Position numbers and translations under genes: made by a program
Assembly: GCF_006740685.1 (NCBI RefSeq)
Contig: NZ_CP035425.1
Span: 349,687 to 413,686, forward strand
Direction of reading: 5' to 3'
Source: Candidatus Nitrosopumilus sp. SW
Lineage (GTDB): Archaea; Thermoproteota; Nitrososphaeria; Nitrososphaerales; Nitrosopumilaceae
DNA length: 64,000 nt
Notes under the pieces: model-generated
The model's input: only the letters and a program-made list of their open reading frames with translations
Told to the model about the DNA's origin: nothing
The model's database searches: none
Shown here: positions 7,217 to 27,050 of the stretch, piece after piece
Numbering within the stretch: position 1 is the first letter of the stretch
Layout of the letters: each line of letters begins with the position of its first letter

Positions 7217-8545
7217 TTAGCCCAATCCCATTCTTCTAAGAGTGCCTTGCATCTGTCTACCTTTTGAGGCCTTCATCATATTCTTAGAATTTTTATAATT
7301 TTTCATCAATTCTTTAACTTCACCCTCAGGCCAACCTGAACCACGTGCAATCCTTTTGATTCTAGAGGAATTCAACAATCCTTCTGGGTCTGCCTTTTCT
7401 TGAGTAGTCATACTTTGAATAATGTATCTCCATTTTGAAACTCTATCTTCCATTTGATTTACTTGGTCATCTTTTACCATTCCAGAAAGACCAGGCATAC
7501 TTTCAAGAATTCCCTGCAACGAACCCATTTTAGTTACTTCTTCTAACTGAGAAAGAAAATCTTCCATGTTCATTTTTCCACTAGAAATTCTTTTCATTCT
7601 ATCATCATCACTTTCACTTTCCAAACGTTTTGCCAAATCCAAAACAGCTTGAATATCACCCATCCCTAACAGACGTCCAACAAACCTTGTTGGAGAGAAT
7701 TTTTCTAAATCATCAATTCGTTCACCAGTACCAATGTACATAATTTGTGCACCAGTTGCAGCAGATGCAGCTAATGCACCACCGCCCTTTGCAGAACTAT
7801 CTAGTTTTGTAATTATTACCCCACCGACAGGAATTGTTTTATGAAATGCTTCAGCTTGATTGAAACATTGTTGTCCAATTGTTCCATCAATTACAAGCAG
7901 TGCTAAATCAGGATCTGCAACTTTGTTAATTCTATCCATCTCTTCAAGAAGATCTTTTTCTTCTTTGTGACGTCCAGCTGTATCAATCAGAATAACATCC
8001 AATGGTTGCCCTTCAAAATGTTTTAGACCATTTTTTACAATACTAGGAGAGTCTTTGTTATTTTCTTCACCGTATACTTCGACGTTTGATTTTTCACACA
8101 TTGTTTTTAGTTGTACTAATGCACCAGGGCGGTAGGTATCAGCTCCAATAACACCAACTTTGTATCCTTGCCTAGTCAAGAATTTAGCAAGTTTGGATGC
8201 AACAGTGGTTTTACCACTCCCTTGAATTCCAAGCAAAATGATTTTGTTTTGTTTTCCAGGTTTAAAATCAAATTCAGATTCGTTTCCAAGTAGATTTGCA
8301 AGTTCATCATATAGAATTTTGACAATGTGATCTTTTCGAGACAGGCCTGGAGGGGGAGTCTCATTGAGAGCACGTTCTTCCAAGTGTTTTGTGATTTCAA
8401 GTACCAATCTCACGTTAACGTCAGATTGTAATAGGGCTCTTTGAACATCCTTTGAGAGTTCTTTTATTAATTCCTCATCTATTCCTGAGGATTTTACAAT
8501 CTTCTTGATTGCGTCACCTAAACTACTCTTAAGTCCATCAAGCAT
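7217..8545 (-). CDS. srp54: Signal recognition particle GTPase SRP54
   Basis: A 442-residue SRP54/Ffh that binds signal peptides and delivers ribosomes to the membrane with SRP19 (also in this window) and 7S RNA. N domain about 1-90; G domain with P-loop 'GIQGSGKTT', 'DTYRPGAL', 'DTAGRH' and '[13 protein letters not shown]'; then an M domain with Met-rich helices ('[12 protein letters not shown]', '[16 protein letters not shown]', '[18 protein letters not shown]'). Length is usual for archaea. Its start overlaps the end of dph6 by 8 bases, indicating a dph6-srp54 operon. Confidence 0.97.
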
Positions 8546-9227
8546 TGTAATTCAATTCCGCATCCACTATTTCAAACCTTCCTCTATAACCATCCCATTT
8601 TTTTTCTGCACGATTAATTTTGATCGAGTTAGAAAATAAAGGGCAATCAATTACAAATGTTTCAGCTTCACCACCTTCAAAATTTAAATTAAATCCAAAC
8701 TTGTCAGAAAGTTTTCTTAAAGTTTCAATTTCAGAATGTCCAATTGTTTTTCCCAACCACGAATCATCCAATCCATCAGAAGACACAGTGATCATAATGA
8801 AAACAAAGTTTGCATCAAGTAAATCATTCATGTATTGTTCAGGCTCTAAACCCCACAAAGGTGCAACTACAGTCAAACCATATTTTGAGCAAACTTTTTC
8901 AAATTTTTCTTTTTGAAAATTACTTTTGATTCCACCATGTACTATTCCTTCAATATCATACTTATTTTTGGCAGTTTTTAGTAAATTTTCCAATAAAGAA
9001 AGTTCATCTTTTGTATCATTAGAATTAGAATCAATTGTAATTTGTGGAATTTGCATTGATTTTGCTTGTAGTTTTGTCCATTGTATATTTGGGTGATGAA
9101 GTAAGTGACTTTCGTCAGATTTTGTAAATACACTTAGAAGACATTTAATTTCATGCCCTTGTTTTTGTGCCAAATGTATAGCATAAGTGCTGTCTTTTCC
9201 ACCAGAAAACAGAGAAGCAAGTTTCAT
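8538..9227 (-). CDS. dph6: Diphthine--ammonia ligase (Dph6)
   Basis: A 229-residue N-type ATP pyrophosphatase that makes the last amidation of diphthamide on elongation factor 2. The PP-loop 'LFSGGKDSTYAIHLA' is at residues 6-20. The family motif 'EGIVHGGIKSNFQKEKFEKVC' is near 96-116, with 'GEAETFVIDCPLF' near 187-199. The position between the eIF5A/sRNA unit and srp54 places it among translation genes. It overlaps srp54 by 8 bases. Confidence 0.93.
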   Translation of the reverse strand: MKLASLFSGGKDSTYAIHLAQKQGHEIKCLLSVFTKSDESHLLHHPNIQWTKLQAKSMQIPQITIDSNSNDTKDELSLLENLLKTAKNKYDIEGIVHGGIKSNFQKEKFEKVCSKYGLTVVAPLWGLEPEQYMNDLLDANFVFIMITVSSDGLDDSWLGKTIGHSEIETLRKLSDKFGFNLNFEGGEAETFVIDCPLFSNSIKINRAEKKWDGYRGRFEIVDAELNYNA

Positions 9228-9270
9228 TTTATAAAAAAATCAATCCAACAATTGTTTAAGTTTATTCAAA

Positions 9271-9335
9271 GGACGCTTCAACACTCATAATCGTCATCAT
9301 AAATCAGACGGCTTTTCCGATAATCATCAGCATCC
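9271..9335 (-). ncRNA. Box C/D guide RNA, predicted to guide C34 methylation of elongator tRNA-Met
   Basis: Read on the minus strand from 9335: terminal stem GGATGC, box C TGATGA (9329-9324), 16 bases, box D' CTGA (9307-9304), 3 bases, box C' ATGATGA (9300-9294), a 12-base guide (9293-9282), box D TTGA (9281-9278), one A, then GCGTCC, which pairs with the opening stem (one T-G pair). The 12-base D guide complements 'CACTCATAATCG', which contains an anticodon loop CTCATAA. Counting five bases from box D lands on the C of CAT, position 34. Box D is degenerate (TTGA for CTGA). It begins 4 bases after the eIF5A stop, so it is probably processed from that transcript. Confidence 0.78.
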
Positions 9336-9338
9336 AGA

Positions 9339-9749
9339 CTATGTCTTAATGCGCATGATTTTAGTTTTGTCCATTACAACCCAGTATTCTACATTTTGTC
9401 CGTTTTCTAGTTTTCCTTTAACTTCATCATCAATCAATGTAACATCAATTGTTTCAAAAGTTTCAGAATCCATTAGTTGAACAGTATCACCAGTCATGGA
9501 GATAATTTGTCCTACTTTTTTGTTAATCATAGGTACATGGATTTGCATGCTGACAGGTCCTACGTGTGGTCTTTTTTGACCATCAAAAATACCCTCAGCA
9601 ACAATTCTGGCTTTTGCTGCACCGTGTTTTCCTGGTTTTGATGTATCATATTCTACGATTCTACATGGTTCGCCACTTGGTTGATCTGAATGTGGCAGTA
9701 AAATGTAAGACCCAATCTTTAATGAACCAAGATCAGAAGGTTTGCTCAT
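9339..9749 (-). CDS. eif5a: Translation initiation factor 5A
   Basis: A 136-residue aIF5A, which helps ribosomes through difficult peptide bonds. The hypusination loop 'TSKPGKHGAAKARI' spans residues 36-49; Lys41 is the modified lysine by comparison with the family. An SH3-like N-terminal domain is followed by an OB-fold C-terminal domain ending 'VVMDKTKIMRIKT'. A box C/D RNA begins immediately after its stop on the same strand. Standard length, no oddities. Confidence 0.97.
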   Translation of the reverse strand: MSKPSDLGSLKIGSYILLPHSDQPSGEPCRIVEYDTSKPGKHGAAKARIVAEGIFDGQKRPHVGPVSMQIHVPMINKKVGQIISMTGDTVQLMDSETFETIDVTLIDDEVKGKLENGQNVEYWVVMDKTKIMRIKT

Positions 9750-9783
9750 GCAAAAATAGTTTTTGGTCGAATATTTAACTTTT

Positions 9784-10392
9784 CTACTTTAGTTGTTCTA
9801 AAATTGAAAGGCTCATCAAATTTGTCATTGCAAGGCCTTTTCTGTTAGCATCACGTCTTGTTTGATCACAGTATTTTTTAACACTTTGATGACTCTTTTC
9901 ACTGGCAACTTCAATAACAATGATATTTTCAGAATAAGGGAATGTGAATTTGGAGGGATTTTTACAAAATGTTTCCATGTTTCCCATTCCTGCAGACTCG
10001 ATTTGGTCTTTTTTTACCAATAAATGAGCAATTTCAGAAACATCGTCATCTTCACCATATTCCAAATAATAGACAGATACAAAATTGACATCCCCTAGAA
10101 CTTCATGTTGGAATAGATCGTCTTTTACATTAAAGACAAAAGATGTTTTTTCTTGATTATTTTCAACAAGATCATCTGTAATTTTTGCACTGTCTTTGAA
10201 TTTAGCTAAAAGATAATGGTTAGTAGAATCTGAAAAATAGGGTTTGCTTTCAGATGAAAATGTACCAGTAACAAAATACAATCTTTCAATATTTTTTGAG
10301 TTCAACCATAATTCTTTTAGTTCAATTGACTCATGGGTATGAAGATAAGGGGCACAAACATAACCAGAATAAGATAGTTTTAGTTCAGACAT
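9784..10392 (-). CDS. Hypothetical protein, 202 aa
   Basis: Not recognised. It is a soluble mixed alpha/beta protein without signal peptide or membrane helix. Notable segments are 'YAPYLHT'-like near the start (C13 and H18-H20), an acidic 'EYGEDDDVSEIAHLL' and a C-terminal 'YCDQTRRDANRKGLAMTNLMSL' helix. It sits upstream of eif5a on the same strand with a 34-base gap, so it may be co-transcribed. No function can be assigned. Confidence 0.75.
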   Translation of the reverse strand: MSELKLSYSGYVCAPYLHTHESIELKELWLNSKNIERLYFVTGTFSSESKPYFSDSTNHYLLAKFKDSAKITDDLVENNQEKTSFVFNVKDDLFQHEVLGDVNFVSVYYLEYGEDDDVSEIAHLLVKKDQIESAGMGNMETFCKNPSKFTFPYSENIIVIEVASEKSHQSVKKYCDQTRRDANRKGLAMTNLMSLSILEQLK

Positions 10393-10460
10393 TAAACAAT
10401 CAACATTTTTGAAGAGTATTTATGCTTATATTGATAAGTCGATCAAATCGCTACGATAGT

Positions 10461-10469
10461 TTTTTAATA
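10461..10469 (+). promoter_or_regulatory. TATA box of tRNA-Tyr
   Basis: 'tttttaata' is centred about 28 bases upstream of the first tRNA base, the expected archaeal promoter spacing. Confidence 0.5.
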
Positions 10470-10492
10470 GCAGTAAACTTCGTTTTTCTTGT

Positions 10493-10619
10493 CCCGTGGT
10501 AGCTCAGCCTGGTAGAGCTTCCGGCTGTAGTTGTTGGCTTTAGATGGCTGACCGAATAACAGCATATCAGGCATACAGAAACCGGGTTGTCGGTGGTTCA
10601 ACTCCGCCCCGCGGGACCA
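10493..10619 (+). tRNA. tRNA-Tyr (GTA) with a 50-base intron
   Basis: Acceptor CCCGTGG pairs with CCGCGGG (10609-10615); the C1-G72 pair is the archaeal Tyr identity. D arm GCTC/GAGC (10502-10518). Anticodon stem tccgg (10520-10524) pairs with ccggg (10582-10586). Loop C-T-GTA-G (10525-10530) resumes with A at 10581. The 50-base intron 10531-10580 sits at the canonical position between 37 and 38. T arm ggtgg/ccgcc around ttcaact. Discriminator A 10616; CCA is encoded (10617-10619). Confidence 0.96.
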
Positions 10620-10714
10620 CATAATATTCTATAAAAAAATAATTGTAAAAATAATAAAAAGATAGACTAGGTTAAGAAAACATAAGATGAAATCTTAAAT
10701 TAAAAATTCATTGT

Positions 10715-10906
10715 CTACTCTGTTTTTTTGACTTTTTGTGCTGCTGGGCCTTTTTTGCCTTCACCGATTTCAAACTCGACTTTATCGCCTTCGTTGATGA
10801 ATCCGTCTACATCTGTTTTGTGAACAAATAGATCGTCTCCACCTTCTCTTTCAATAAAACCAAAGCCCTTAGTACGGTTAAACCATTTTACGGTACCTTG
10901 TTCCAT
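10715..10906 (-). CDS. csp: Cold-shock domain protein
   Basis: A 63-residue single cold-shock domain, an OB-fold that binds single-stranded RNA/DNA. RNP1 'KGFGFIER' (residues 13-20) and RNP2 'DLFVHKTDV' (25-33) are intact, and '[15 protein letters not shown]' is the universal start. Cold-shock proteins of this kind are bacterial in origin but are found in mesophilic thaumarchaea, where they probably act as RNA chaperones. It lies between tRNA-Tyr and eif1a, in the same direction as eif1a. Confidence 0.96.
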
Positions 10907-10951
10907 TTAGTTTTGAAATGATTTCCTCACTATATTAACTAAGGTATTTAA

Positions 10952-11263
10952 TTAGAAATCTTTTGGAATATGTCCATTTTCCTTTAGCCATTCAACTTGT
11001 GGAAGTGTAAATCTCCAAACAATGTCGCCTTTTTCAGCTTCGTTAAAGTCCCATGGTGCAATAATTACAATATCATTATCTCTTATCCAAACTCTTCTCT
11101 TTAATTTTCCTCGAATTCTACCGCGTCTTGTAACATTGTCGGTACATTTGATTAAGACATTTTCACCACCAAGCATCTTGAGAACTCTGCCAAAGAGTTC
11201 ACCTTCTTCAGGAAGACGGATTTCTTTTAATGCACTTTCACTTTTAACTTGGCGCTTACCCAT
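10952..11263 (-). CDS. eif1a: Translation initiation factor 1A
   Basis: A 103-residue aIF1A, an OB-fold factor that occupies the ribosomal A site during initiation. The signature 'LPEEGELFGRVLKMLGGENVLIKC' and 'RGRIRGKLKRRVWIRDNDIVII' cover the OB-fold, with a short basic N-terminus ('MGKRQVKSES') and a C-terminal 'QVEWLKENGHIPKDF'. Standard family length. Confidence 0.97.
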   Translation of the reverse strand: MGKRQVKSESALKEIRLPEEGELFGRVLKMLGGENVLIKCTDNVTRRGRIRGKLKRRVWIRDNDIVIIAPWDFNEAEKGDIVWRFTLPQVEWLKENGHIPKDF

Positions 11264-26948: not shown

Positions 26949-27050
26949 TGCAGAGAGTGGGATTTGAACCCACGAACTCCTAAAAGAAGGGATTTCCTAT
27001 TTTGGAAGATCTTGAGTCCCTCTCGGTTGACCGGGCTTCGATATCTCTGC
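26949..27050 (-). tRNA. tRNA-Leu (CAA) with a 17-base intron
   Basis: On the minus strand, acceptor GCAGAGA pairs with TCTCTGC (26950-26956). The anticodon stem AGGGA/TCCCT encloses C-T-CAA-G and A. Anticodon CAA is at 27014-27012. The 17-base intron 26994-27010 lies between positions 37 and 38 and can fold as TTCC/GGAA. A long variable arm (cttc/ggag) marks a class II Leu tRNA, and T arm GTGGG/CCCAC encloses TTCAAAT. Discriminator A at 26949; CCA is not encoded. Confidence 0.94.

Follow-up and report, generated by a model that had tools for sequence, protein, structure and literature searches.

We analysed a window of 64,000 nucleotides (64 kb) from the genome of a marine ammonia-oxidising archaeon of the Nitrosopumilaceae. 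On its minus strand we found a one-strand cluster (window 7217-11263) that contains eIF1A, a cold-shock protein, a 202-aa protein, eIF5A, a box C/D RNA of 65 bases, diphthamide synthase and SRP54. The original prediction had placed the RNA four bases behind eIF5A. The adjacency and the Pfam identity of eIF5A were borne out, and the RNA stem begins three bases, not four, after the eIF5A stop codon (9341-9339). The features of the locus are as follows.

9339..9749, minus strand: eIF5A gene (Pfam PF21485, PF01287), directly upstream, the probable host transcript
9271..9335, minus strand: box C/D guide RNA, stem to stem (covariance model R1 matches 9270-9336 at 93.6 bits)
9330..9335, minus strand: terminal stem, 5' strand GGATGC, paired with 9271-9276
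9324..9329, minus strand: box C, TGATGA (TGATGA in 62 of 66 distinct relatives, TAATGA in 4)
9308..9323, minus strand: D' guide TTATCGGAAAAGCCGT, 16 bases, with 10 Watson-Crick pairs to 23S rRNA
9309-9318, minus strand: pairing part of the D' guide, positions 2-11, N+5 base G at 9312
9304..9307, minus strand: box D', CTGA (66/66 distinct relatives; the search pattern allowed CTGA among other forms)
9294..9299, minus strand: box C', TGATGA (66/66, as the pattern required; the covariance model recovers the box independently)
9282..9293, minus strand: D guide CGATTATGAGTG, 12 bases, with 10 Watson-Crick pairs to tRNA-Met
9283-9292, minus strand: pairing part of the D guide, positions 2-11, N+5 base G at 9286
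9278..9281, minus strand: box D, TTGA (66 distinct Nitrosopumilaceae sequences: TTGA 42, ATGA 24)
9271..9276, minus strand: terminal stem, 3' strand GCGTCC, covarying among relatives
8538..9227, minus strand: diphthamide synthase, the next same-strand gene (Pfam PF01902, E 1.5e-59)

Read from 9335 to 9271 on the minus strand, the element is GGATGC-TGATGA-TTATCGGAAAAGCCGT-CTGA-TTTA-TGATGA-CGATTATGAGTG-TTGA-A-GCGTCC, and the six terminal-stem pairs are G-C, G-C, A-U, U-G, G-C and C-G. The four boxes, the six-pair stem, the 12-base D guide and the 16-base D' guide were all present as originally described. So was the degenerate box D (TTGA), where relatives carry TTGA, ATGA or CTGA, the last in several members of family f3 and seen, for instance, in L201-L204. 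A few distant members recovered by the covariance model have TGACGA, TGATGG or TGATGT as box C'. The base preceding box C (UGAUGA) is C, not the purine of the archaeal consensus RUGAUGA. A box/spacing descriptor with a stem of at least 4 pairs found one match in the 64-kb window, namely this RNA, and none in 60 Markov-1 random windows. Rfam at the gathering score gave no match at the RNA or in seven relatives.

Like archaeal box C/D sRNAs, the element has boxes C, D', C' and D in this order, guides of about 10-16 nt beside boxes D and D', a terminal stem of six covarying pairs joining boxes C and D, and a same-strand ORF close ahead. Both guides form 10-bp duplexes with their targets in N+5 register, about 9-10 bp being expected of the class, and the boxes and guides are kept in relatives. 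Nothing categorical sets it apart, although most Nitrosopumilaceae members have NTGA in place of CTGA as box D. The class of archaeal C/D sRNAs is already known; the RNA at 9271-9335 is a new addition to it and combines a tRNA guide with an rRNA guide.

Conservation of the RNA and covariation of its stem

The covariance model, which is independent of the box search pattern, found the RNA in 58/60 genomes of the genus, in 142/151 genomes of the family (22/22 genera) and in 213/250 genomes of the class, counts that include a few weak matches to other C/D RNAs, chiefly near E = 0.01 in the class search. Matches across genera reached E about 1e-23. Additional matches of 25-46 bits in relatives belong to other C/D RNAs and do not represent copies of this one. 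Two high-quality genomes of the family gave no covariance-model match, which may reflect filtering, assembly gaps or true loss. Loss of the boxes in related genomes, the observation that was to count against the original prediction, was not seen among the relatives compared.

We also compared the regions downstream of eIF5A in 110 loci from two collections. The RNA lay within the fetched DNA in 91 loci, which reduced to 66 distinct sequences. The D guide core GATTATGAGT was invariant in all 66, with the pattern partly requiring this core, and the D' guide core GGAAAAGCC was likewise invariant and lay outside the pattern's requirements. Box D' was invariant as well. Guide position 1 and positions from 12 onwards varied among relatives.

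The terminal stem showed changes on both sides at 6/6 pairs, with 96% of cells paired. We counted 39 doubly changed cells versus 7.1 +/- 2.1 in shuffles, in an alignment that was fitted to the stem and included six paralogues. A MAFFT alignment without structure fitting gave 12 versus 2.6, leaving the picture unchanged. When the stem was slid as a control, pairing dropped to 31-47%.

The two guides and their predicted targets

The genome has a sole elongator tRNA-Met gene (G000:C1:1175032-1175145, minus; locus L033). Positions 2-11 of the D guide, GATTATGAGT, pair perfectly with ACTCATAATC of this tRNA (A31-C40), placing the fifth base from box D opposite C34 (N+5). Comparison of the guide with the genome's tRNA-Met genes, suggested as a check at the outset, thus recovered the predicted target. 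The initiator tRNA and tRNA-Ile(CAU) matched at only 7-8 bases versus 10 bp in the elongator, so the D guide discriminates among the CAU tRNAs; position 39 is C39 in these two tRNAs and U39 in elongator tRNA-Met. An exact 12-base search for the complement of the D guide matched only the RNA's own locus, and it missed the tRNA because pairing spans positions 2-11, not all 12. The tRNA-Met was found by reading all tRNA genes, because ARAGORN misses several intron-bearing ones, tRNA-Met included. A match to tRNAs of this quality arose in 0.8% of trials with shuffled guides.

The tRNA-Met gene is interrupted between bases 30 and 31, a non-canonical site, by an intron of about 39 nt, so the D-guide target is contiguous in both the precursor and the mature tRNA. 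The 3' exon begins at A31 and reads ACTCATAATCTGG. The exon boundary and the mature sequence ...CCAG-A-CTCATAA-T-CTGG were confirmed by the relative L245, in which the intron is absent; many relatives keep the intron site, with variable intron length. The elongator tRNA-Met genes recovered all share this target, except for the distant L248, whose stem differs beyond base 40. Since the target is invariant, covariation cannot test the D arm. Judged from the sequences, the D guide very probably directs 2'-O-methylation of the wobble base C34 of elongator tRNA-Met. The statement that C/D RNAs methylate this base in other archaea agrees with sR-tMet of haloarchaea (PMC4033218); in addition, a C34 guide is predicted in Pyrococcus (PMC7994747), and the modification was shown in humans with SNORD97/SCARNA97 (PMC6601510).

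The D' guide had been described as lacking a target that could be named, which no longer holds. We found that its positions 2-11, GGAAAAGCCG, pair perfectly with CGGCUUUUCC of the 23S rRNA. In this genome's 23S, the A-loop U2552 follows the N+5 base at a distance of 42 bases, which makes the latter C2510 in E. coli numbering, a base near the ribosome's catalytic (peptidyl-transferase) centre. The counterparts of C2510 are human 28S Cm4456 and Arabidopsis 25S Cm2880, and Cm4456 is placed 42 bases before Um4498/U2552, the same spacing as in this genome (table, PMC11542601). With shuffled guides, a match to rRNA of this quality arose in 0.4% of trials. Both guides pair over exactly positions 2-11, a length that equals the upper limit of 10 bp given for duplexes in C/D RNPs (PMC7089733, citing Yang et al. 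2016).

The rRNA comparison covered 50 genomes, and the site was obtained in 39. Members of Nitrosopumilaceae carry CGGCUUUUCC there; the other families examined carry CGGCUCUUCC. The D' guide of Nitrosopumilaceae is GGAAAAGCC or GAAAAGCC, and that of families f3 and f17 is GGAAGAGCCG, indicating that guide and rRNA changed together: rRNA U with guide A in Nitrosopumilaceae versus rRNA C with guide G in the other families examined. Placed on the rRNA of other families, the Nitrosopumilaceae D' guide would form only 4-6 contiguous pairs. This compensation may be a single evolutionary event, yet it is direct. With a 10-bp match in register and guide-rRNA covariation, the D' guide very probably directs methylation of 23S C2510.

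Two groups depart from this scheme. In four genomes of genus g9 (L215, L216, L238, L239), GAGT of the D guide stands one base nearer to TGA, or one base farther from it, than usual, so that strict N+5 would miss C34; in this genus the D' duplex is only 8 bp. The phylum-level covariance search gave eight matches outside the class, six of them weak and with neither guide present. The other two belong to family f20, where the RNA lies 125-360 nt behind eIF5A and keeps the D' guide (GAAGAGCCG) with a different D guide; a search for a target of that D guide assigned none.

Other C/D RNAs were also observed. The same genome has a second one at G000:C1:710135-710197, minus (L281), with related copies at L221, L222, L226 and L282. 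Its D guide GGATCTTGAGTT base-pairs to ACTCAAGATC in the tRNA-Leu(CAA) whose intron-bearing gene lies at window 26949-27050, minus, with C34 at N+5. This tRNA gene and another intron-bearing one at 10493-10616 (plus strand), apparently tRNA-Leu(CAA) and tRNA-Tyr respectively, are found by Rfam and missed by ARAGORN. A further C/D RNA in relatives (L283 801-866, minus; relatives L223-L225) has the D guide GTTTGCCGAATT, with an 11-base match to AATTCGGCAAA at position 1789 of the window genome's 23S.

The eIF5A neighbourhood

The RNA is usually 3 nt behind the eIF5A stop codon. Across 80 named loci, counted with an approximate regular expression, the distance was at most 25 nt in 44, 26-150 nt in 17 and greater in 6; the RNA was not found nearby in 13. 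A diphthamide synthase motif was on the same strand in 62/80 loci, and in one genome, L109, the RNA takes up all the DNA that separates eIF5A from diphthamide synthase. Several other genomes have 0.4-1.7 kb between eIF5A and the RNA, or the two on different contigs, with full anatomy and guides retained. The eIF5A linkage is old within the order and not absolute. Co-location with eIF5A and diphthamide synthase hints that parts for translation elongation may be supplied in concert.

Some genomes appear to have acquired a mobile element between eIF5A and the RNA. Such loci are L071, L085, L228 and L230/L285, seen upstream of the C/D RNA, and L073/L284, seen behind eIF5A. There, an intact eIF5A end is followed by at least 1.1-1.7 kb of foreign DNA and then, immediately ahead of the C/D RNA, by a remnant, for example ACTAAAATCATGCGCATTAAGAGTTAA; the eIF5A 3' end looks like an integration site. 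In L073, a 393-aa ORF about 30 nt behind eIF5A has tyrosine-recombinase-like motifs as judged by eye only. This ORF had no real match in Pfam, PHROGs or PDB, a search for relatives on viral contigs found none, and a one-sequence structure prediction gave pLDDT 44. eIF5A is absent from the protein-gene integration targets that PMC6563490 lists in its main text. Several relatives (L107-L123) share a conserved eIF5A-C/D RNA spacer, AATCATAGCACTAAAAT.., which resembles the eIF5A 3' end and is possibly an old insertion scar.

Alternative readings, known guides and proposed action

Nothing beyond short box motifs in AT-rich DNA would favour a chance resemblance in intergenic DNA. This reading has a negligible probability and is refuted by conservation, with matches at E about 1e-23 across genera and covariation of both the stem and the guide-rRNA pair. 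It is also improbable that only the tRNA-Met guide is used and that the D' guide is an orphan, with its match to rRNA a mere coincidence. The tRNA-directed C/D sRNAs of Pyrobaculum, which resemble this RNA in guiding the tRNA wobble position, do have one guide reported as targetless (review, PMC7994747), and the D' duplex shrinks to 8-9 bp in some genera. In our RNA, however, the second guide matches 23S rRNA over 10 bp in register, a match with a chance of about 0.4% for a shuffled guide. Its core is invariant in 66 distinct sequences though the pattern did not demand it, it follows the rRNA U/C difference, and the D' half is retained in family f20 despite the different D guide. The target base is moreover methylated in humans and plants.

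The RNA could act chiefly as a chaperone for folding or splicing of 23S rRNA and pre-tRNA-Met, with methylation being secondary. Such roles are among those proposed for archaeal double guides (PMC4644070, PMC7994747), and the intron of the target tRNA immediately adjoins the guided stretch. But the N+5 register hits two positions that are methylated elsewhere, and a pure chaperone would not need such a register, which makes this reading very improbable. The usual position 3 nt behind the stop codon would also suit an L7Ae-binding k-turn that regulates the eIF5A mRNA from within its 3' UTR, instead of a free guide RNA; one RIP-seq report suggests L7Ae translational regulation in archaea (PMC5539422). 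We consider this extremely improbable, since a UTR element would not retain two target-matching guides, and full anatomy and guides persist in several genomes where 0.4-1.7 kb separate the RNA from eIF5A or the two lie on different contigs. The RNA at 9271-9335 is highly likely, from the sequence comparisons, to be a dual-guide archaeal box C/D sRNA for tRNA-Met C34 (D guide) and 23S C2510 (D' guide).

Among known guides, the closest include sR-tMet (RF02163) and sR41 (RF01126), which share a D guide with UAUGAG in register with box D and align over that part. We presume the target of sR41 from its guide; sR-tMet targets C34 of elongator (pre-)tRNA-Met, as predicted here. Their D' guides differ from that of our RNA, and the likeness may reflect common ancestry or convergence. 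The RNA scores below the gathering score for every Rfam family, reaching 16.9 bits versus 50 for RF02163 and 24.5 bits (E 4.3e-4) versus 54 for RF01126. It functions, we propose, like sR-tMet/sR41 and is not filed there because it is far below these gathering scores.

Human SNORD97/SCARNA97 also targets C34 of elongator tRNA-Met through its D guide, and SNORD97 is located in a translation-factor gene, in an intron of EIF4G2 (PMC6601510). The rRNA position of our D' guide corresponds, by numbering, to that of SNORD49A/B (28S Cm4456 = E. coli C2510), which guide Cm4456 in humans (PMC9941101). These human RNAs differ in being a eukaryotic snoRNA/scaRNA, with sequence homology not claimed, and separate eukaryotic snoRNAs, respectively. 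We know of no second guide of the rRNA kind in SNORD97/SCARNA97 and of no tRNA guide in SNORD49A/B.

We infer the following course of action for the dual-guide RNA. It would probably be co-transcribed with eIF5A, trimmed out of that transcript and shielded by the L7Ae, Nop5 and fibrillarin that assemble on it; release and protein protection are described for archaeal C/D RNAs adjoining ORFs (PMC7994747). In the assembled RNP, the D guide would position C34 of elongator (pre-)tRNA-Met under fibrillarin, five bases upstream of box D, and the D' guide would position 23S C2510 five bases upstream of box D', with 2'-O-methylation at both sites as the predicted outcome. A wider reading, in which one RNA from the eIF5A transcript couples the tRNA-Met C34 mark, the 23S mark and a translation-factor mRNA as a unit dating to the class ancestor or earlier, is conceivable and rather unlikely. 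The D' half and the eIF5A neighbourhood also occur in family f20, a lineage outside the class.

The interest of the RNA lies in its paired tRNA and rRNA targets, its guide-rRNA covariation and its old link to eIF5A. The apparent orphan guide was solved through a one-base difference between the rRNAs of the families compared. The result is a strongly supported guide, with both targets named, for a group of mesophilic archaea in which few C/D RNAs have been described. In humans, the counterparts of the predicted sites, tRNA-Met C34 and 23S C2510, are each methylated with an RNA of their own (SNORD97/SCARNA97 and SNORD49A/B), and the case therefore bears on the age of both marks.
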